Both the position numbers and the translations under genes were made by a program. Below are positions 808-28,439 of a stretch of DNA of 28,439 nt, one piece after another. The stretch comes from Porphyromonas sp. (GTDB taxonomy: Bacteria > Bacteroidota > Bacteroidia > Bacteroidales > Porphyromonadaceae), in contig RBKG01000236.1 of assembly GCA_003640335.1 (NCBI GenBank), forward strand, positions 1 through 28,439, written 5' to 3'. The notes beneath the pieces were generated by a model. It did no database searches. It saw only the letters and a program-made list of their open reading frames with translations, and was not told where the DNA came from. The stretch's first letter is position 1, and each line of letters starts with the position of its first letter.

Positions 808-3158
808 TAAGATTTAGCCTTTGCTTTAGTTCTTGAAGAAGTACGTTTTACTGTTTTCTTTTGAGGTGCTTCGTCTATGATTTTCTTAGCATCCTCATAA
901 GTTAAACTAGCAATATCTGTCCCCTTAGGGAGCTTATAGTTTGCATTCTGATACTTTATATATGGTCCAAAACGACCATCACGCACTTCTAGACCTTGCT
1001 CTTCAGTAAAGACTTTAAGCAGGCTTTTTTCTTCTGCTTCAGCTTTAGCCTGAATGAGTGCAATTGCTTCATCAAGATTTACATCAAGAGGGTCTCTATC
1101 CTTAGGAATGCTGACATAAGATTTGCCATAGCGCACATAAGGACCAAATTTACCAATACCGACACTCACAGCATCACCATTGTACTCTCCCAATGCTTTA
1201 GGCAACTTAAATAAGTCCAAAGCCTGCTCTAATGTTATGCTCTCTAATGTCTGCCCAACTTGTAGCGAAGCATAGCGAGGTTTCTCAACCTGCTCTGTCG
1301 TTCCAATCTGAACCATAGAGCCAAAACGCCCCATACTTGCGATGACGGGTAAGCCACTATCAGGGTCGATACCTAGCTCACGAGTTCCAACACGAGCTGA
1401 ACCTTTCTCAAACACTTGAGCCTTCTCTACATCTGGATGAAAGCCTTTGTAGAACTTAGCTATAATGTCTTGCCACTGGTGTCTACCGAGAGCAATATCA
1501 TCAAAGTCTTCTTCTACACTTGCAGTAAAGCCATAATTAACAATATCAGGGAAATGCTCTACAAGGAAATCATTAACAACCATACCCATATCAGTAGGAA
1601 TTAGTTTGCCCTTGTCTGAACCATACTTCTCAGCCTTTACACTTCTCTTTATCTTACCTGTTTCGGGAGTAAGCTTTAGTGTAATGACTTCTCTAGGGCT
1701 TCCCTCCTTATCGCCTCGCTCAACGTAACCACGCTCTTGTATCGTATTTATCGTAGGCGCATAAGTAGATGGTCGACCGATACCTAGCTCTTCCATCTTG
1801 CTCACCATACTTGCCTCCGTATAACGTGGAGGACGCTGGCTATAACGTTGGTCAGCTGTTACTGACTCTGGTGTGAGCACCTCTCCGACAGACATAGGAG
1901 GCAATAGTTTATTGCCATCTTGACTATCATCAGAGAGATACACTTCCAAGAAGCCTCTAAACTTGATAACCTCTCCATTTGCGACAAATGAATAGTCTGT
2001 ACCCGAGACCGGAATACTCACGGTTGTACGCTCAATATCAGCATCGCTCATTTGAGATGCCAAGGTTCTGCGACGGATAAGGTCATAGAGCTTTTTCTCT
2101 TGTGCTGAACCTGAAATCTCAGCGACATCTATGTATGTTGGACGTATAGCTTCGTGAGCTTCTTGCGCTCCCTTACTCTTCGTAGTAAATTGGCGTAACT
2201 TATGATACTTCTCTCCATACGTTCCGACGATTTCCTTTTTAAGTGTCGAAAGAGCCATCTGCGACAGATTAACAGAGTCTGTACGCATATAAGTGATATG
2301 CCCACTTTCATAAAGAGTTTGTGCTAGGCGCATAGTTTGACTAACCGAATAGCCTAGTTTATTGGCAGCATCCTGCTGTAAGGTAGATGTCGTAAAAGGT
2401 GCAGAAGGGCTACGACGTGCCATTTTCGTAGCAAGATTTCCTATCTGAAATCGTTGGCTACTGCAATATGCTAAGAAAGAATTAGCTTCCTCTTCTGTGT
2501 CAAAACGATGATTTAGCTCTGCTGCTAAGACGGAACCATTAGGGAGTAAAAAGTTAGCCTGAACTCTATACTGACTAGTAGGTTTATAGGCATTTATTTC
2601 TCGCTCACGCTCTACAATAAGTCTTACAGCAACGCTCTGTACACGCCCTGCAGACAAAGAAGGGCGAACACGCCTCCATAATACAGGCGACAGCTCATAA
2701 CCAACTAGTCGGTCTAACACTCTACGTGCCTGCTGAGCATCTACTAAGTCTTGGTTAATATCTCTCGGATTGTCTAGGGCATGCATGAAAGCCTCTGATG
2801 TAATTTCATGAAAGACAATACGACGTCTATTCTGAGGCTTTAGACCTAGTGTTTCGCTTAGATGCCAAGCAATAGCTTCCCCTTCACGGTCTTCATCGGA
2901 TGCGAGATAGACTAGTTCACTTTTCTTTGCCTCTGCCTTAAGTTCCCGAATAAGTTTTTTCTTATCCTCATTAACCTCATAAATAGGGCTAAAGTTATTC
3001 TCAATATCAACACCCAAAGGACGCTTCTTAAGGTCACGAACATGCCCTGCACTCGCCATCACTTTGAACCCACTAAGTTTCTTCTTATTAAGAAAGCCTT
3101 GTATGAGTTGCGCCTTTTTAGGGGACTCTACTATTACTAAATTCTGTTCCTTAGGCAT
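807..3158 (-). CDS. topA: DNA topoisomerase I (type IA)
   Basis: Relaxes negative supercoils by single-strand cleavage through a 5'-phosphotyrosine. The 783-residue protein opens with a Toprim domain (VIVESPKKAQ at 8-17; acidic triad Asp88, Asp90, Glu92 in SDEDREGE). The catalytic Tyr290 sits in GHITYMRTDS. From about residue 590 come several glycine-rich topoisomerase C-terminal repeats of the G(R/K)FGPY(I/V) type, and a Lys/Arg-rich tail. The four-cysteine zinc fingers of the E. coli enzyme are absent, as in many Bacteroidota. It is first gene of a topA-truA unit, preceded by a TAAATTTG -7 element and lying just downstream of the nagA terminator. Start ATG at 3156-3158. Confidence 0.97.
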   Translation of the reverse strand: MPKEQNLVIVESPKKAQLIQGFLNKKKLSGFKVMASAGHVRDLKKRPLGVDIENNFSPIYEVNEDKKKLIRELKAEAKKSELVYLASDEDREGEAIAWHLSETLGLKPQNRRRIVFHEITSEAFMHALDNPRDINQDLVDAQQARRVLDRLVGYELSPVLWRRVRPSLSAGRVQSVAVRLIVEREREINAYKPTSQYRVQANFLLPNGSVLAAELNHRFDTEEEANSFLAYCSSQRFQIGNLATKMARRSPSAPFTTSTLQQDAANKLGYSVSQTMRLAQTLYESGHITYMRTDSVNLSQMALSTLKKEIVGTYGEKYHKLRQFTTKSKGAQEAHEAIRPTYIDVAEISGSAQEKKLYDLIRRRTLASQMSDADIERTTVSIPVSGTDYSFVANGEVIKFRGFLEVYLSDDSQDGNKLLPPMSVGEVLTPESVTADQRYSQRPPRYTEASMVSKMEELGIGRPSTYAPTINTIQERGYVERGDKEGSPREVITLKLTPETGKIKRSVKAEKYGSDKGKLIPTDMGMVVNDFLVEHFPDIVNYGFTASVEEDFDDIALGRHQWQDIIAKFYKGFHPDVEKAQVFEKGSARVGTRELGIDPDSGLPVIASMGRFGSMVQIGTTEQVEKPRYASLQVGQTLESITLEQALDLFKLPKALGEYNGDAVSVGIGKFGPYVRYGKSYVSIPKDRDPLDVNLDEAIALIQAKAEAEEKSLLKVFTEEQGLEVRDGRFGPYIKYQNANYKLPKGTDIASLTYEDAKKIIDEAPQKKTVKRTSSRTKAKAKS

Positions 3159-3183
3159 ATTGCACTATTATTATTTATGTGGG

Positions 3184-3191
3184 CAAATTTA
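3184..3191 (-). promoter_or_regulatory. Candidate Bacteroidota -7 promoter element for topA-truA
   Basis: The minus strand reads TAAATTTG, matching the Bacteroidota primary-sigma -7 consensus TAnnTTTG, 25 bases before the topA start codon and just after the nagA terminator. No clear -33 TTTG lies at the expected spacing, so this is a one-box match in AT-rich DNA. Confidence 0.45.
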
Positions 3192-3213
3192 ATGAATAAA
3201 TAATAAATAAAAG

Positions 3214-3260
3214 CAGTCTCACAAAGAATAAAGCCATAAGCTCTATTCTTCGTGAGACTG
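3214..3260 (-). terminator. Rho-independent terminator after nagA
   Basis: Arms 3214-3230 and 3244-3260 pair over 17 positions around a 13-base loop. The single non-Watson-Crick position is a G.U wobble when read on the minus strand. The minus strand continues with GCTTTTATTTATTATTTATT, a T-rich tail. It lies about 50 bases past the nagA stop codon and closes the ftsE-to-nagA gene run. Confidence 0.8.
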
Positions 3261-3311
3261 AAACTGTGATATCTAAGTGAGCCTTTAGGCTCTATCAATC
3301 AAATACTAAAT

Positions 3312-4445
3312 CTACTTTTCAGGATAGAAACACAAAGACTTAGCATCTGTTACTTCATCAGTAAAGACAGAGAAGAATGCTGGATAACCAACAGTAAGCT
3401 GTCCGATTTGCTTATCTCTACCAACAGCCTTAGCTGGACGGTCTGTAGCCATAGCTACAGCTTCAGCTAAAGTGATATTAAGGTAAGACATCGCATTCTT
3501 AATAGCTTCAGGCATATCAATTGCTGAGCCAGCGAGCTTACCATCTCTATTATAGTAGAAGCCGTCAGGAGTAAGCTTAGCATGGAAGCCTTCAAAGTCT
3601 AGTTCATCCATTTCTCTACCTAGCACAGCTGCATCTGTAATCAAAATAAGACGTTCGCCCTTCGCACGATATGCGACACGAGCTTGAGCAGGATGACAGT
3701 GAGCACCATCTAAGATAATAGGACCATATACTCTATCATCATCAAGAGCAGCCCCTACTAGTCCTGGTTTACGAGGCTCAAAAGCACTCATCGCATTATA
3801 TAGGTGAGTTACTATGCGAATACCCTTATCAAAGGCATCCTTTGCACCATCGTAACAGATTTCACTATGTCCTGCAGATACTTGAATGCCACTAGCAATC
3901 AGTTTCTTAATTTGGGCATCAGTGAATTGCTCTGGAGCAACTGTGATAAGAGAGATAACCCCCTTACCCTTCTCAATAAGTTTATCAAGAAGCTCATCAT
4001 CAGGAATACGAATATATTCTAGAGTATGAGCACCTCTACGTACTGGGTTTAAGAATGGTCCCTCTAGATGCATTCCTAAGATATGAGGGTCTGTCTTCAT
4101 AGCTTCACGGACAGCCTCAATAGCTTCAAAGATTGTTTCAGGCAAAGCTGTAACAAGTGTAGGCTGATAATATGGTGTAGCATGCTTAAGGCAACCTTCA
4201 GTCATTTCGGCTAGGGTCTCTGCATCTGGTGTCTGCGAGAAGAACTTGCGGATACCTCCATTCAATTGAATATCAGTAAAACCTGGCGACAAATACTTTC
4301 CTCCTAGGTCTAATACTTCTGCGCCAGCTTGTGGCTCTGCATCACCGAGAGACACAATACGCCCGTTTTCTACACTAATAGTTGTTGGGCGAAGCTCTAC
4401 TCCCTGAGATAGGAGGCGAGCATTTTTGATAAAGACACGTTTCAT
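3312..4445 (-). CDS. nagA: N-acetylglucosamine-6-phosphate deacetylase
   Basis: Hydrolyses N-acetylglucosamine 6-phosphate to glucosamine 6-phosphate and acetate, for amino-sugar use or cell-wall recycling. At 377 residues it is full length. Metal and catalytic residues of this amidohydrolase family are present: Glu128 in MHLEGPFL, His193 in AGHS, His214 in THLYNAMS, substrate-side DGAHCHP at 246-252 and the catalytic Asp271 in LITDA. It lies 30 bases after the GltD-like gene and is followed by a terminator, so it is probably the last gene of that operon. nagB and transport genes are not in the window. Start ATG with an A-rich leader and no clear Shine-Dalgarno site. Confidence 0.95.
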   Translation of the reverse strand: MKRVFIKNARLLSQGVELRPTTISVENGRIVSLGDAEPQAGAEVLDLGGKYLSPGFTDIQLNGGIRKFFSQTPDAETLAEMTEGCLKHATPYYQPTLVTALPETIFEAIEAVREAMKTDPHILGMHLEGPFLNPVRRGAHTLEYIRIPDDELLDKLIEKGKGVISLITVAPEQFTDAQIKKLIASGIQVSAGHSEICYDGAKDAFDKGIRIVTHLYNAMSAFEPRKPGLVGAALDDDRVYGPIILDGAHCHPAQARVAYRAKGERLILITDAAVLGREMDELDFEGFHAKLTPDGFYYNRDGKLAGSAIDMPEAIKNAMSYLNITLAEAVAMATDRPAKAVGRDKQIGQLTVGYPAFFSVFTDEVTDAKSLCFYPEK

Positions 4446-4475
4446 TGTTCTAACTTTTATTTGATAGTATGTTAG

Positions 4476-5951
4476 TTATGCTGTAAATTTCTTATGTATT
4501 GCTCTTGCAGCAGCTCTGCCATCTCTCATTGCATGTACTACCGTAGCACCACCACGAGACGCATCACCACCAGCATAAAGCATAGGTATTGAGCTCTCTT
4601 GCTCCTCATTTACGACAACAACGCTACCCCATTTTAGTTCTAATCCATCGATAGACTGAGGTAATTCTTTACTTGGAGACACACCTACACAAACAATAAC
4701 CTGGTCAACATCTACAACCTTAGTATTACCCGAAGGAACAGGCTTACGTCTACCACTTTCATCAGGTTCAGTAAGCGTCATTTCCATAAGTTCCATCGCT
4801 CTAAGATGACCATATTCATCTGCAAGATAACGTTCCGGGTTATGTAGAGTCATAAATTCAATACCTTCATCTTCGGCATGTTCAACTTCATCTTTACATG
4901 CAGGCATTTCTTCCATTCCTCTTCTGTAGACAACCATTACTTGTTCTGCTCCAACTCTTCTTGCTACACGCGCTGCATCCATCGCAGTATTCCCTCCTCC
5001 TATGATAGCCACTTTCTTGGCTTTGAGTACTTGGATATTTTTCTCTGCTTCAGAAGCCTCACTTAGGTTAATTATATTGAGATACTTATTCCATGGCAAT
5101 ACTTCTGGCAAGTCCTCACCTTCTATGCGCATGAGATTGCTTTCCGTTGCTCCTGTTGCAAGGAAAATAACATCATAACCATCTTCCTTTAGAGACTCTA
5201 TACTCTTATCAGTTCCTATTTCTATGCCATATTTGAACTGAACACCATAAGCCTCAAGTCTTGAGATTTCGTCATCAATTACATCGGCTGGTAGACGAAA
5301 GCGAGGAATACCCAAACGCATCACACCACCAGGATGATTTATACGGTCAAAGACCGTCACCTCATAGCCCCATAAGGCTAAGTCATGAGCAGCTGCTAGC
5401 CCAGCAGGACCTGCTCCGATAATTGCGACTTTATAGCCATTAGCTGGACTAGGAATTTTAATACTATTAAGTTCTGAGCGATGTTCTCTTTCGTAGGTTG
5501 CTACATAACGTTCAAGTGCTCCGATATGGACAGCTCTCTTTTTCAAACTAACCTTATATATACATCCGCCTTCACACTGGTTCGCTTGGTCGCATACTCG
5601 TGAACAAATGGCCGATAGCGTACTACTTTCTCTAAGAATAGTCCAGGCTTCCGCTAAGTTACCTTGCTCTAGATTCTTAATAAAACTAGGAATATGAATA
5701 TGAGCAGGACAAGCGTCCACACAACCTGGAGTAGGACAATCCAAACAGCGTCTAGCCTCCGCAAGAGCTTCTTCTGGAGTATAAACGAGCTTGTCCTCCA
5801 CATAAAGAGCTGAGATATTTGGCTCTTGGTGTAGTTCTGATATATGTTGTGGATCCAAAGCAATACGCTCCTTGTTCGGCAAGGATTTTCTTAGCTCCGC
5901 TCGCCAAGGCTCAGTGCGTCTTTGCTTAATTAACTCCTGTAACGTAACCAT
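4476..5951 (-). CDS. gltD: GltD/NfnB-like NADPH-dependent flavoprotein (glutamate synthase small-subunit family)
   Basis: A 491-residue iron-sulfur flavoprotein. The N-terminal domain carries two cysteine sets, Cys69/72/77/81 (CLDCPTPGCVDAC) and Cys116/120/126/130, as in the Fe-S domain of glutamate synthase beta subunits. The FAD site IIGAGPAGLAAAHD starts near 177, the NADPH site AIIGGGNTAMDAARVA near 315, and a C-terminal FAD segment YAGGDASRGGATVVHAM closes the fold. In GltBD it passes electrons from NADPH to the large subunit; relatives act as sulfide dehydrogenase or NfnB subunits. No GltB, NfnA or SudB partner lies nearby, so the partner and reaction are not settled here. The neighbours are menA upstream (85-base gap) and nagA downstream (30 bases). 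Confidence 0.85.
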   Translation of the reverse strand: MVTLQELIKQRRTEPWRAELRKSLPNKERIALDPQHISELHQEPNISALYVEDKLVYTPEEALAEARRCLDCPTPGCVDACPAHIHIPSFIKNLEQGNLAEAWTILRESSTLSAICSRVCDQANQCEGGCIYKVSLKKRAVHIGALERYVATYEREHRSELNSIKIPSPANGYKVAIIGAGPAGLAAAHDLALWGYEVTVFDRINHPGGVMRLGIPRFRLPADVIDDEISRLEAYGVQFKYGIEIGTDKSIESLKEDGYDVIFLATGATESNLMRIEGEDLPEVLPWNKYLNIINLSEASEAEKNIQVLKAKKVAIIGGGNTAMDAARVARRVGAEQVMVVYRRGMEEMPACKDEVEHAEDEGIEFMTLHNPERYLADEYGHLRAMELMEMTLTEPDESGRRKPVPSGNTKVVDVDQVIVCVGVSPSKELPQSIDGLELKWGSVVVVNEEQESSIPMLYAGGDASRGGATVVHAMRDGRAAARAIHKKFTA

Positions 5952-14974: not shown

Positions 14975-16354
14975 CTAAAGAGCCATACTATAAGGCAAAT
15001 TGCCACTAGCTTGAGCTAACATAGGGTCTAAAGCAGAGGCAACAATGCGGATAAAGGGCAATCCCTTATCTGTTATAGTAAGGGCATCTTCATTCCACAC
15101 AACTAAGTTATCCTCAGCCATACTTTGTAATAGCTCTCTATTTATATAGATTATGCCCTTCAGCTCGCTTATAGACATCTCATAACGCTCTGCAAAATCT
15201 CGCCAAACAATTTGAGCATTACACATAATTGAAGCTATTAGTTCTCCAGCAAGCTGCTCCTGTTGGGTTAGCTTGTACCCTCGTTCGACGGGAAGCTCTC
15301 CCCGCTCAATACTCTCTCTATAAAACTTGATACTTTTAGTATTCTGAGCATAAGCACCCGCAAGTTGGCTAATGGCTGTTACCCCCACAGCATAGACTTG
15401 TCCTGTCGTGGCTCTAGTACAATAGCCTTGAAAATTTCGATGCAATAAACCTTGCTCTTGCGCTATGTAGAGAGCGTCATTAGGTCTTACGAAGTGGTCC
15501 ATGCCAACGCTATAATAACCTGCCTCTTTCAGTAATGATTGAGCTGCAGCCAACATAGCAGACTTATCTTCGGCTGATGGTAATCCTAGCTTTTCTAGAA
15601 TAAGTTGTCGAGACTTAACCCAAGGAACATGAGCATAGCTAAAGGTTACAAGTCTATCCGGATTTAAAGCTATCGCTCTTCTTATGTTATCAGCAAAAGA
15701 TTGAGGAGTTTGCTTAGGCAAACCATATATCAAGTCCAAATTAATTCCAATGCCATGACTACGGAGTAAACAAAAGATTTCTTCAAATGCTACTCTTGAT
15801 GGTTGTCTATTCACAGCAGCAAGGACATCTTCATGAAAATCTTGTACCCCTAAACTTACTCGAGTAAAGCCAGCATCAACTAACTCCTCCCACCCTGATA
15901 AGCTGAGGTAGGCGGGATGGCATTCTATTGCAATCTCCGCACCTTCGGATAATGTGAAGCTAGACTTTAAGCGCTCATTTATTTTCTTCAACCATTTCAG
16001 AGGAACAGCCGTGGGCGTACCTCCTCCATAATGAATTTGCATAATTGGGCGAGATGTATCCAACAAAGGGATAATCATCTCTAACTCATCTAGTACTGCT
16101 TGCATGTACGCATCTACATTATCTCGTTTTTCCATTTCATACGCATTACAAGCGCAATAATGGCAGAGGCGCGGACAGAATGGGACATGTATATAAAAAG
16201 ACAAACCCTTTATCCCTTCCTGATTACTTTTGACGATAGCCTTACGCAAATCTTCAGAGCCAAAACTAGGTTGAAAATAATTTGCAGGAGGGTAACTTGT
16301 ATAACGAGGTGTTGGTCGGTTGTATTTAGAGATTAGAATAGAATCTATTTCCAT
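14975..16354 (-). CDS. hemN: Oxygen-independent coproporphyrinogen III oxidase
   Basis: Radical-SAM enzyme that decarboxylates coproporphyrinogen III to protoporphyrinogen IX without oxygen. At 459 residues it matches the E. coli enzyme in length. The features separate it from the HemW paralogue: N-terminal PRYTSYPPA at 16-24, the four-cysteine motif Cys60, Cys64, Cys67, Cys69 (CPRLCHYCAC), GGGTPT at 110-115, and the C-terminal substrate region RNFQGYCTR, VGVTAIS and YAQN. It is the only tetrapyrrole gene in the window. It lies 278 bases after the TonB receptor/MFS pair, with the repeat element between them, and 47 bases before the DUF4301 gene. No good TAnnTTTG box precedes it. Confidence 0.95.
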   Translation of the reverse strand: MEIDSILISKYNRPTPRYTSYPPANYFQPSFGSEDLRKAIVKSNQEGIKGLSFYIHVPFCPRLCHYCACNAYEMEKRDNVDAYMQAVLDELEMIIPLLDTSRPIMQIHYGGGTPTAVPLKWLKKINERLKSSFTLSEGAEIAIECHPAYLSLSGWEELVDAGFTRVSLGVQDFHEDVLAAVNRQPSRVAFEEIFCLLRSHGIGINLDLIYGLPKQTPQSFADNIRRAIALNPDRLVTFSYAHVPWVKSRQLILEKLGLPSAEDKSAMLAAAQSLLKEAGYYSVGMDHFVRPNDALYIAQEQGLLHRNFQGYCTRATTGQVYAVGVTAISQLAGAYAQNTKSIKFYRESIERGELPVERGYKLTQQEQLAGELIASIMCNAQIVWRDFAERYEMSISELKGIIYINRELLQSMAEDNLVVWNEDALTITDKGLPFIRIVASALDPMLAQASGNLPYSMAL

Positions 16355-16454
16355 TATTTCATTTATTGTAATTTGAATTCACGAGCTATTAAAAGAACTA
16401 ATATACGTCTCTTAGTGTTGTTTAAACCTTAAATAAAAATTGCTGAAGTGCTAA

Positions 16455-16478
16455 AGGAAACTTATATCCTAGTTTCCT
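16455..16478 (-). terminator. Weak hairpin past the MFS gene, possible terminator
   Basis: AGGAAACT and AGTTTCCT, perfect 8-base arms around an 8-base loop, lie 155 bases past the MFS stop. The minus strand continues TTTAGCACTTC, a poor U-tract, so termination here is uncertain. It touches the left edge of the repeat element and could belong to it. Confidence 0.3.
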
Positions 16479-16564
16479 ATTCTGCAAACTTCAGCTGTAG
16501 TTTGTGCAGACTACGGCTGAAGTTTGTACAGACTACACGTGTAGTCTGCAAAAACTTCGCCGAG
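16474..16564. repeat. 22-base-period palindromic intergenic repeat, copy A
   Basis: After the flank TTCCTATTCTGCAAACTTC (16474-16492), four 8-base cores at 16491-16498 (TCAGCTGT), 16513-16520 (ACGGCTGA), 16535-16542 (ACACGTGT) and 16557-16564 (TCGCCGAG) alternate with 14-base linkers of consensus AGTYTGYRCARACT. The period is exactly 22. Core 1 pairs with core 2 to make a 46-base hairpin at 16483-16528, and 16529-16548 is a perfect 20-base palindrome centred on core 3. A decayed continuation may run to about 16627. It fills the gap between the MFS gene and hemN. A second copy lies at 28361-28439. Confidence 0.85.
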
Positions 16565-16632
16565 TGCTCAACCTTTACTTTCCTATTTGAAAATCTTCAT
16601 CTGCGATAGCTCCGACTTTTTGTAGTAGAGCT

Positions 16633-17835
16633 TCAATGCCGTTTAGTCCAATAAAAGACATAAAGCAAGCTAATCAATGAAAAGACAGCTTCTAATGCAA
16701 AGAAACCACTATAGCCTAAGCGTTCAGAGAGTCCTCCACTAAAACTGGCTATCAAAAGACCACTCAAATGAGGAATGACAATCTGTAATGTAAAGTCTGT
16801 TCCCTCGCGACCTGAACGAACATAGTCCATTGCGAAAGAATAGACCATCACCGTCCCAAAGCCATAGGCTGCCCATAGTAAACCTAAAGATAAGAGAATG
16901 TAAGGTAACGAATATAATCCAAGAAAGGCAAGCACAGCAATTACAAAGGCGGCTATCCCTATAAACATCGCAGCATATCGTAAGCCTTGATGAATATCTA
17001 GAACCTTACGAAATCGGCTCAACAGCATACTTCCAAGAAATCCCATACTTGCTCCATAAAGAGTGAATAGTAAGCCTATATCTTTAAGACTATATTTCAA
17101 ATCGACAAGGTAGGGTTTCATCATAGCCATAGTACCTACAAGTCCAAAATTCAAAAGAACGAGTACAAGTATTCGCCCAAAGCTATCCTTCTGCGAAAAA
17201 AAACTTACAATGTCATTAAGACCAATCCTATCAGTATCATGAATAAGTTTCTTCTCAATCTGCACTTCTGATTTGTAAGTATATAGGGGAAGAAGAAATA
17301 GCATAACAAGCGCTGCCATTAAAAGAAATAAAGCAGTCCAGCCCAAGCTATGATAAAGCATCATGAGTACTCCTCCCCCAAAAATCGTTCCAGCAAACTG
17401 CCCCATAGATTGTAAGCGATTAGCGCGTACGACATCTCCTTTGAAAGTTAAAGAGGTTAGTGCATCTGTAGCAATATCCTGCGTCGCTGAGCAAACAAAG
17501 GCAAGGACTATAAGACCTAGAATTAAGGTAAAATGAAGCTTAATCTGAAGGAAAGCAACAGCGACAAGAGCGAGCGCATAAGCTAATTCACTTGAAAATA
17601 TCCAGCGTTTATAGCTTGCGAGATTTGATGTATTTCTATCTACGATAGGAGCCCAAAGAAGCTTAGCAATCCAAGGAAGCTTAACCAATTGAAGAAGACC
17701 AATAGACGAAAGCGAAAAATGTTCTTGTCTCATGATAACAGGTAAGAGTGTACTGATGAGACTCATCGGTACACTCTGTGCCATATAGAGAGAAAAGAAT
17801 GTCAGTTGCTTACGTCCAAACGGAGTATACTGCAT
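16633..17835 (-). CDS. MFS permease, AmpG/RhtX-FptX-like, probable siderophore importer
   Basis: A 400-residue inner-membrane protein with about twelve hydrophobic segments. The N-terminal block IGLLQLVKLPWIAKLLWAP followed by IVDR at about 43-65, and ATQDIATDALTSL in the fourth segment, are characteristic of the AmpG/RhtX/FptX branch of the major facilitator superfamily. AmpG imports muropeptides; RhtX and FptX import ferric siderophores. The gene starts 10 bases after a TonB-dependent receptor, matching the receptor-permease arrangement of pyochelin uptake (FptA-FptX), so siderophore or similar iron-ligand import is favoured. A run of eight A (plus strand) occurs near 17196-17203. The stop is TGA at 16633-16635. 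Confidence 0.8.
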   Translation of the reverse strand: MQYTPFGRKQLTFFSLYMAQSVPMSLISTLLPVIMRQEHFSLSSIGLLQLVKLPWIAKLLWAPIVDRNTSNLASYKRWIFSSELAYALALVAVAFLQIKLHFTLILGLIVLAFVCSATQDIATDALTSLTFKGDVVRANRLQSMGQFAGTIFGGGVLMMLYHSLGWTALFLLMAALVMLFLLPLYTYKSEVQIEKKLIHDTDRIGLNDIVSFFSQKDSFGRILVLVLLNFGLVGTMAMMKPYLVDLKYSLKDIGLLFTLYGASMGFLGSMLLSRFRKVLDIHQGLRYAAMFIGIAAFVIAVLAFLGLYSLPYILLSLGLLWAAYGFGTVMVYSFAMDYVRSGREGTDFTLQIVIPHLSGLLIASFSGGLSERLGYSGFFALEAVFSLISLLYVFYWTKRH

Positions 17836-27767: not shown

Positions 27768-28235
27768 TTACAAATCAGATCCATCAAAACCAAAAGGCAG
27801 GCAAAGACGTGCATCTTCAAGAATAATAGTTTCGTCTTTACCCGAGAGCAATAATCGAAAAGGCTTAAAGCGTGTACTTGTTTCCACCAAAACCTGACGA
27901 CATGAGCCACAAGGAGAGATTTGTTCAACTTGCCCAATATTATTAAAAGCGACTACAGCTAAAGCCAGAACAGGCACATCGGGATATTGAGCTCCTGCAT
28001 AAAAAAGAGCCGTACGCTCTGCACACAAACCAGAAGGGTAAGCTGCATTTTCTTGATTGCTCCCCGTCACAATAATACCATTCTCCAAGAGAACTGCAGC
28101 TCCAACTTTGAATTGACTGTAGGGAGCATAAGCATCTTGAGCAACCTTAACAGCTTCAGCAATCAAAGTAGCATCTTCGCGACTCAGCTCATTATTGCTT
28201 AACCGTACGTAGGGTATTGATAATATCTGCTTCAT
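27768..28235 (-). CDS. cdd: Cytidine deaminase
   Basis: Zinc-dependent deamination of cytidine and deoxycytidine to uridine forms in pyrimidine salvage. The 155-residue protein is the homotetrameric, single-domain type, with zinc ligands Cys71 (in LCAERTA, with catalytic Glu73), Cys109 and Cys112 (in SPCGSCRQV). The NQENAAYPSG segment and YSQFKVGAA near 39-47 are also family hallmarks. It is the first gene of cdd-ppk1-ppx-purE, with a TATCTTTG box 20 bases upstream. Start ATG 28233-28235. Confidence 0.96.
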   Translation of the reverse strand: MKQILSIPYVRLSNNELSREDATLIAEAVKVAQDAYAPYSQFKVGAAVLLENGIIVTGSNQENAAYPSGLCAERTALFYAGAQYPDVPVLALAVVAFNNIGQVEQISPCGSCRQVLVETSTRFKPFRLLLSGKDETIILEDARLCLPFGFDGSDL

Positions 28236-28360: not shown

Positions 28361-28439
28361 TTCCTATTCTGCAAACTTCGGCGAGGTCTGTACAAACTAC
28401 ACGTGTAGTCTGCACAAACTTCAGCCGTAGTTTGTACAG
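28361..28439. repeat. 22-base-period palindromic intergenic repeat, copy B (cut by window edge)
   Basis: It opens with the same 19-base flank as copy A (28361-28379), in the same orientation. Cores follow at 28378-28385 (TCGGCGAG), 28399-28406 (ACACGTGT) and 28421-28428 (TCAGCCGT), separated by linkers 28386-28398 (13 bases) and 28407-28420 (14 bases), with a third linker cut at the window end. The reverse complement of 28390-28439 aligns closely with 16503-16552 of copy A. It lies upstream of cdd, so the repeat is not tied to one neighbouring gene. Confidence 0.82.

Follow-up and report, generated by a model that had tools for sequence, protein, structure and literature searches.

The locus and its genes

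The window, by which we mean the whole stretch of DNA analysed (28,439 nucleotides of Porphyromonas sp., contig RBKG01000236.1), carries mostly housekeeping genes of a Porphyromonas-like kind, among them those for topoisomerase I, methylmalonyl-CoA mutase, HemN, RicT and PdxA. Within these 28 kb there are two copies of an array element. Copy 1 is at 16474–16564, in the 278-bp gap between an MFS transporter gene and hemN. Copy 2 is at 28361–28439 and is truncated there by the window's end; it had been counted in an earlier reading made from the sequence alone (below, the sequence-only reading), and it is real. No ORF of at least 80 codons runs through either copy. The neighbouring genes are:

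14975..16354, minus strand: hemN, oxygen-independent coproporphyrinogen III oxidase (NCBIfam TIGR00538, 442 bits)
16633..17835, minus strand: MFS transporter gene, upstream of hemN (siderophore/AmpG-type MFS NCBIfam models, below their cut-offs)
27768..28235, minus strand: cytidine deaminase-like gene (Pfam PF00383)

The MFS protein belongs with a metagenomic cluster of 384 members at 98% identity, which suggests that the species may be common. The PdxA identity is at most 61% in the 37 of 38 family genomes that have a match; in five of these (G002, G022, G024, G025 and G026) there is one TAA within the matching reading frame. The closest HemN in the species collection, 63% identical, is in L001, an uncultured Porphyromonas MAG whose MFS protein is 59% identical to that of the window. 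No array separates the MFS and hemN ORFs of L001, which overlap (2967–4289 and 4261–5631). The 278-bp gap and array in the window are compatible with an insertion, L001 being too diverged for proof.

Structure of the two copies

Copy 1 begins with a leader. Four cores of 8 bases follow, with 14-base quasi-palindromic linkers between them, and the period is 22. The features of both copies are listed here; the leaders are given on the plus strand and the other features have no strand.

16474..16492, plus strand: leader of copy 1, candidate terminal repeat, TTCCTATTCTGCAAACTTC; exact 19-base match to 28361–28379
16491..16498: core A, TCAGCTGT, read directly; 7 of 8 bases complementary to core B
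16499..16512: linker 1, AGTTTGTGCAGACT; 0 mismatches to AGTYTGYNCARACT
16513..16520: core B, ACGGCTGA; its reverse complement is found in copy 2 at 28421–28428
16521..16534: linker 2, AGTTTGTACAGACT; 0 mismatches to AGTYTGYNCARACT
16535..16542: core C, ACACGTGT, self-complementary; also in copy 2 at 28399–28406
16543..16556: linker 3, AGTCTGCAAAAACT, degenerate; 1 mismatch
16557..16564: core D, TCGCCGAG, read directly
28361..28379, plus strand: leader of copy 2, TTCCTATTCTGCAAACTTC; exact 19-base match to the copy 1 leader
28378..28384: core D', TCGGCGA, 7 nt, one base short
28385..28398: linker, GGTCTGTACAAACT; 1 mismatch
28399..28406: core C', ACACGTGT, read directly
28407..28420: linker, AGTCTGCACAAACT; 0 mismatches
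28421..28428: core B', TCAGCCGT, the reverse complement of core B, read directly
28429..28439: partial linker, AGTTTGTACAG, cut by the window end

Linker and core are both near-palindromic, and copy 1 therefore has a dyad centre every 11 bp. Its self-identity is 0.71 at lag 22, compared with 0.34 or less at all other lags from 15 to 29. A chain of five dyads at spacing 11 scores 29 out of 35, against a top score of 24 among 300 Markov-1 shuffles of the window (spacings 8–16 allowed, a minimum required of each dyad, complexity filtered), and at the remaining spacings from 8 to 24 the real window has no five-dyad chain scoring above 22. The description of the array as 14-base linkers and 8-base cores with a 22-base period is thus borne out. 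It had also been thought unlike an ordinary tandem repeat, and here we disagree, because TRF scores positions 16483–16537 as a tandem repeat, with period 22 and 81% matches.

Some details of the earlier description need adjustment. The array had been taken to start at 16474, which holds from core A onwards; the first nine bases, TTCCTATTC, and the half-linker that follows them are the shared leader, whose last two bases in copy 1 are the first two of core A. The linkers had been called fixed, as linkers 1 and 2 are, with linker 3 being degenerate. The cores had been called complementary to themselves or to each other: core C is indeed self-complementary, and the match between cores A and B is incomplete.

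Read on its opposite strand, copy 2 has cores B, C and D in the same order as copy 1, and the two copies are identical at 53 of 61 aligned bases. They are thus inverted copies that share one 19-base end. In copy 1 what follows the leader is core A; in copy 2 it is the reverse complement of core D. Since the same 19-mer opens both copies despite the inverted order of the cores, a complete element should carry it, inverted, at both ends. Compared with copy 2, where the corresponding end is intact, copy 1 lacks the expected right-hand repeat after core D or has it in decayed form. What is proposed as the right-hand terminal repeat is therefore a candidate put together from two copies that each show a single end, the other having presumably decayed in copy 1 and been cut off by the window in copy 2. 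No target-site duplication was recognised around the array copies in the window. In each copy the leader points towards the start codon of the adjacent gene, which is 119 bp away for copy 1 (hemN) and 125 bp away for copy 2 (the cytidine deaminase-like gene); with two cases, the similarity of these distances may be coincidence.

Immediately 5' of the copy 1 leader, at 16455–16478, there is a further palindrome, AGGAAACT-N8-AGTTTCCT, which has no counterpart in copy 2. Its centre and the first dyad of the array are 28 bp apart, which puts this palindrome outside the 11-bp register.

Occurrence of the sequence elsewhere

A search for linker-N8-linker in related genomes had been proposed in the sequence-only reading. 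It gave no match in 26 genomes of the genus (up to two mismatches) or in 393 genomes of the order (up to one mismatch). Single linkers occur once or twice each in 7 of the 38 family genomes, compared with 1 of 38 for the reversed control. BLASTN with the array found nothing in phages and plasmids, and its best E value against the 38 family genomes was 0.008. Exact and degenerate linker-core-linker patterns had no match in viral contigs. The 17-base leader pattern matched five viral contigs, with no dyad chain present, and these matches were judged to be chance. The sequence of the array therefore looks lineage-specific within the genomes searched. A weak BLASTN match (E 0.21) is found in L112, where a 22-bp array about 1 kb away was met by chance.

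A dyad lattice in the Porphyromonadaceae

The geometry of the array is far more common than its sequence. A scan that takes no account of sequence, and looks for five dyads at any constant spacing from 8 to 18, was run on 1.6 Mb from 17 Porphyromonadaceae genomes. It found 13 clusters in 8 of the 17 genomes, every one of them at spacing 11, and none in Markov DNA. At a lower threshold, 2.0 Mb from 17 genomes gave 35 clusters at spacing 11 (in 10 of the 17) and 31 at spacing 22, these being largely the same arrays, with at most two at each of the other spacings from 8 to 24; seven of the 17 genomes had no chain at this threshold. The 2.0-Mb sample was picked by known long contigs, except for G030:C81, which was picked after an array had been seen there, and the sample of G014, enlarged after arrays had been seen, supplies 15 of the 35 spacing-11 chains. 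The stretches of G026 were picked around pattern matches and stay outside these density counts, yet they are the source of most of the cores tested below. In 0.93 Mb of other Bacteroidales, the lower threshold gave three clusters at spacing 11, three at 22, and at most two elsewhere.

Two other methods agree. Among runs of near-perfect 14-bp palindromes at a constant period between 10 and 60, 11 of 12 have a period of 11, 22 or 44 (controls: one run in Markov DNA, two in other Bacteroidales). TRF, which is blind to dyads, reported 507 arrays of period 10–60, keeping one array per overlapping group. Periods 10–12 are the most numerous, and above 15 bp the leading periods are 22 (74 arrays), 23 (43), 21 (25) and 18 (10). 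The corresponding numbers in other Bacteroidales are 11 at period 22, 9 at 21 and 2 at 23, out of 175 arrays; in 200 kb of E. coli, a small sample, 0 of 21 arrays have period 22 or 23. TRF gave 125 arrays with period 22, 23 or 44. At a cut of 0.64 in circular palindromicity, close to the 95th percentile for random 22-mers, 52 of them pass and 73 fall short. The 22–23 bp arrays are thus strongly enriched in dyad symmetry, though it is not a general property of theirs.

Most of these arrays lie between genes. ORFs of at least 120 codons cover 84% of the DNA, and 48 of the 52 dyadic arrays are outside them, as are 63 of the 73 less palindromic ones. The window array has the same features, namely period 22, dyads every 11 bp and an intergenic position, and on this comparison it appears to belong to an architecture that is widespread in the Porphyromonadaceae. 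Arrays that share a period of 22 or 23 have unrelated sequences across these genomes.

Array families and carrier elements in relatives

The units of the main families are:

G002: CCACGTGG
G029: TTCGTACGTACGAA
G012: AACGTATACGTT and AAGTAATATAACTT
G007 (P. gingivalis): ATAGT-N4-ACTAT
G030, G026 and others: TTTCC-N6-GGAAA
G014: ACCTAC-N-GTAGGT, period 23, 77 sites in 500 kb

Repeats of the form TTTCC-N6-GGAAA-N6 are present in 12 of the 38 genomes, with 82 matches in G026, 37 in G030, 32 in G002 and 25 in G007, against at most one match of the reversed control in any genome. AAGT-N6-ACTT-N8 repeats are present in 8 of 38. The reversed control of the latter, TTCA-N6-TGAA-N8, itself matches in G022, G024, G025 and G026, most often in G025 with 22 matches on one strand, and may be one more family of 22-bp dyad arrays. 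The ACCTAC-N-GTAGGT unit of G014 is often in 23-bp tandem beside runs of A or T, and none of its 17 classified arrays is in a convergent gap. One of the G007 arrays of ATAGT-N4-ACTAT (L142, 8987–9100) is within a polysaccharide-like gene cluster, where it reaches the beginning of a small and, judged by eye, possibly HU-related ORF.

The 14 + 8 format of the window is also found in G034, with CTTGATGNNTCAAG-like linkers and a core, TTGTCTAA, in both orientations among the matches listed. The G026 cores are drawn from a limited repertoire, of which the eight commonest account for 54 of 76. Both orientations occur, for example AACGCT/AGCGTT and AAGGGA/TCCCTT among the matches listed. A restricted core set and a modular type of element had both been anticipated from the window. 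The former is seen in G026. The latter is what the relatives have: their arrays occur at scattered sites, most of them between genes, and combine arms that stay fixed with inner cores that vary.

In two relatives some of the arrays are carried inside larger elements with inverted ends. In G002 (L136, 13401–13679) two CCACGTGG arrays are within a 279-bp element whose 26-base inverted ends match at 24 of 26 positions; of three G002 loci checked, one has both ends of the carrier and the other two lack one or both. In G007 the element that carries a TTTCCAC array measures about 670 bp. Two of its copies, aligned over 674 bases, share 93.8% identity, and their 16-base inverted ends, CAGGGCAATCGCATTT and AAATGCGATTGCCCTG, match perfectly. 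The contrast that had been drawn between the window array and MITE layouts is therefore too strong, all the more since the published BrickBuilt repeat, discussed below, is itself a MITE that contains a tandem repeat (PMC4596501).

The arrays also change in length. Of six aligned pairs of orthologous arrays in sister genomes, four differ by 22 or 66 bp, and the other two have no such gap; units are thus gained and lost in multiples of 22 bp between sister species.

Further elements are found beside the arrays. A repeat of about 175 bp (L276, 8500–8674) has copies in L265, L271, L280, L283 and L284 of G026 and at L238, 1209–1383, of G024. The copies are about 93–99% identical, and among the matches listed they are present or absent beside dyad arrays at orthologous G024/G026 sites, with a few-base overlap at the junctions that resembles a target-site duplication. 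The carrier element in G007 is split at one site (L216, 413–1482), where some 1.07 kb of DNA bounded by ISPg3-type ends, ACGTCAGTTCGA, directly adjoins a 22-bp array.

Comparison with known repeats

The closest published relative of these arrays is BrickBuilt of P. gingivalis (Klein et al. 2015, PMC4596501). That paper describes a 23-nt tandem repeat within a MITE-like element, with 19 intergenic loci in ATCC 33277, a number of units that varies between strains, predicted stem loops, and small inverted-repeat ends that are IS5-like, GAGACCTTTGCA (its Table 2). It also mentions earlier reports of 22-nt tandem repeats in W83, given without locations. The window array and its relatives resemble BrickBuilt, as described there, in being intergenic, dispersed and made of a short tandem unit within an element that in the window is probably MITE-like. 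However, the window unit is unrelated to the 23-nt BrickBuilt unit given in PMC4596501, and the leader TTCCTATTCTGCAAACTTC of the element in the window is unlike the IS5-like GAGACCTTTGCA type in the same source. Leader and tail segments of 200–300 nt like those of BrickBuilt were not detected in the window.

We can also compare the dyads directly. A 23-bp, 12.1-copy array in G007, between protoporphyrinogen-oxidase-like and AraC-like neighbours, matches the setting given for BrickBuilt_2 in PMC4596501; the neighbours are convergent, and their ORFs were named from sequence by eye. The circular palindromicity of its unit is 0.78, compared with 0.73 at the 99th percentile of random 22-mers. Its dyads are weak, with two of at least 6 in 12 units, whereas the window array has period 22 and clear dyads. 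The TTTCCAC-type arrays of G007 resemble the window array in having period 22, fixed arms, variable centres, a dispersed distribution and a carrier with matching inverted ends; they differ in that the sequence is unrelated and the carrier is larger. The window array is a lineage-specific new variant, and BrickBuilt is a published example of the kind. A description of a general 22-bp dyad lattice was not found in the open-access literature, excerpts of PMC5771137 included, subscription papers being outside this search.

The 77bpIR upstream of the P. gingivalis capsule operon is likewise intergenic inverted-repeat DNA in the same genus. Tagged HU (PG0121) binds DNA containing it (PMC3969353), and its transcription is bidirectional, with an antisense RNA (PMC8757827). 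It is described as two 77-bp arms around a loop, unlike a 22-bp array. A 77-bp inverted pair was sought in two 20-kb stretches (L141 and L142) and was not found.

Protein half-sites, RNA or neutral repeats

On the basis of these observations, we favour the interpretation, with about even confidence, that the window contains a non-coding, MITE-like intergenic element in at least two copies, with an interior that is a minisatellite of 22-bp dyad units and that presents helically phased protein half-sites on double-stranded DNA. The putative half-sites are the inverted sequences AGTYTG/CARACT, which recur once per 22-bp unit of the window array. This is close to two helical turns, and a dimeric protein could therefore bind every unit on one face of the DNA, with dimers side by side and adjacent dimers able to touch. 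The inner 6–8 bases would not be read, and could drift or be reshuffled when arrays recombine with one another. An IS transposase provided in trans would disperse the element. Action on double-stranded DNA is inferred from the lattice, as are the putative protein, its cooperative binding and the transposase.

A repeat of 22 bp also fits two turns of A-form RNA, at 11 bp per turn. The sequence-only reading had raised a modular RNA, and one can imagine that the transcribed array folds into alternative hairpins and serves the genes on either side as a terminator, an attenuator or an RNA-stability element. We regard this as unlikely. Both strands of the array do fold far better than dinucleotide shuffles (z of -7.4 and -6.3), as any dyad array must. 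A search of 16000–17000 against Rfam gave no family above the gathering threshold, and two miRNA matches below it (E 0.23 and 0.68). The position of the arrays is likewise equivocal. In G026, 10 of 16 classified arrays are in convergent gaps, against a background of 121 of 732 gaps, which would suit an RNA element; the arrays of other families avoid such gaps (2 of 43, background 107 of 663). These counts exclude arrays that are inside predicted ORFs or lack an ORF on one side (6 of 22 in G026, 5 of 48 in the others). The difference in placement between G026 and the other families makes a single shared function doubtful. An intrinsic terminator is doubtful: the preference for convergent gaps is limited to G026 and the other families do not have it.

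If the arrays were constrained as RNA, mismatches on the strand that is transcribed should more often be G.U than A.C. Arrays between tandem genes have 71 G.T and 80 A.C, with no excess of G.U on the gene strand, and within arrays the strands are concordant in 221 of 326 comparisons, against 214.9 ± 5.5 at random. Nor do the cores appear to be selected for pairing. The 76 G026 core hexamers have no more internal complementarity than shuffles, the 2-5 pair being in fact lower (9 against 30.4 ± 3.7); in G030 and G007, with 16 cores each, there is no significant excess, G030 being slightly above shuffles. A long hairpin formed through complementary neighbouring cores, as suggested by cores A and B of the window, was rejected, because complementarity in 56 adjacent pairs of G026 cores is not above chance. 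Neighbouring G026 cores are weakly alike in the direct sense, with an identity of 3.70 compared with 3.45 ± 0.18, a value reached by 176 of 2000. The arms are conserved and the inner cores are drawn from a restricted set in either orientation, with no sign of RNA pairing.

It may instead be that the arrays have no function, and that template switching at quasi-palindromes, together with slippage, makes and homogenises dyad arrays, with the 22-bp period being inherited or mechanistic. Several observations fit such a by-product. Array length changes by whole units of 22 bp. Where a position is asymmetric, the base found there in the next unit is the same in 647 cases, the mirror complement in 399 and any other in 284, which is what copying of units in both orientations would give. 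In the one clear case among the matches listed, an array is at a rearrangement junction, the flanks in G022 (and G026) matching G002 about 52 kb apart (L242), from which it follows that arrays may matter for genome evolution and for the assembly of these species. (A second apparent junction, G002 L241, is weak, its right flank matching two places in G026, L284 and L271.) However, one period is common to unrelated sequence families, something that slippage alone would not lead one to expect; the combination of conserved arms with variable centres suggests that the arms are read; and the absence of 22- and 23-bp arrays from E. coli, in the small sample noted above, argues in the same direction. 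We therefore consider a purely neutral origin improbable.

REP and BIME sequences are species-specific intergenic palindromes that occur in tandem and in both orientations, and a Y1 transposase is the enzyme of REP systems; to our knowledge, strict 22-bp phasing is not a feature of REP. The sequence-only reading had allowed for palindromes mobilised by a transposase, and the arrays are REP/BIME-like as tandem intergenic palindromes. Spread by a Y1 (RAYT-type) transposase is nevertheless very improbable, given the 22-bp phasing and given that Y1_Tnp (PF01797) is found in only 7 of 38 family genomes, which include the array-bearing G002, G018 and G024, and in none of the array-rich G007, G012, G014, G026, G028, G030 and G034, all of these being relatives of the host of the window.

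A shared geometry

Returning to protein half-sites on double-stranded DNA, a broader proposal can be made, which we regard as possible though rather doubtful. This is that the Porphyromonadaceae, and more thinly other Bacteroidales, maintain a 22-bp dyad lattice that is independent of sequence, in which half-sites and cores turn over, implying a shared reader of the geometry. Such a reader might be, for example, a family of nucleoid or recombination proteins with diversifying specificity, and the arrays would then form a chromosome-wide regulatory or recombination system. If the lattice is general, BrickBuilt would be no peculiarity of P. gingivalis but a single member of a class that spans the family, with many different sequences and a fixed geometry of 22–23 bp, for which a common DNA-binding or recombination factor is predicted. 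It would also become testable whether and how these repeats expand, contract and move, a question left open in PMC4596501. The keeping of a 22-bp dyad register across unrelated sequences of the family is of more interest than the window array itself.

A few similar arrays are found in other Bacteroidales, for example in Bacteroides pyogenes (L037) and Prevotella vespertina (L032), both with period 22, and in Parabacteroides (L049), with period 42. It is worth adding that in the last of these, a MAG (4518–4754), the palindromes TCCGAG..CTCGGA and TTTCAACGTTTGAA alternate, 21 bp apart.
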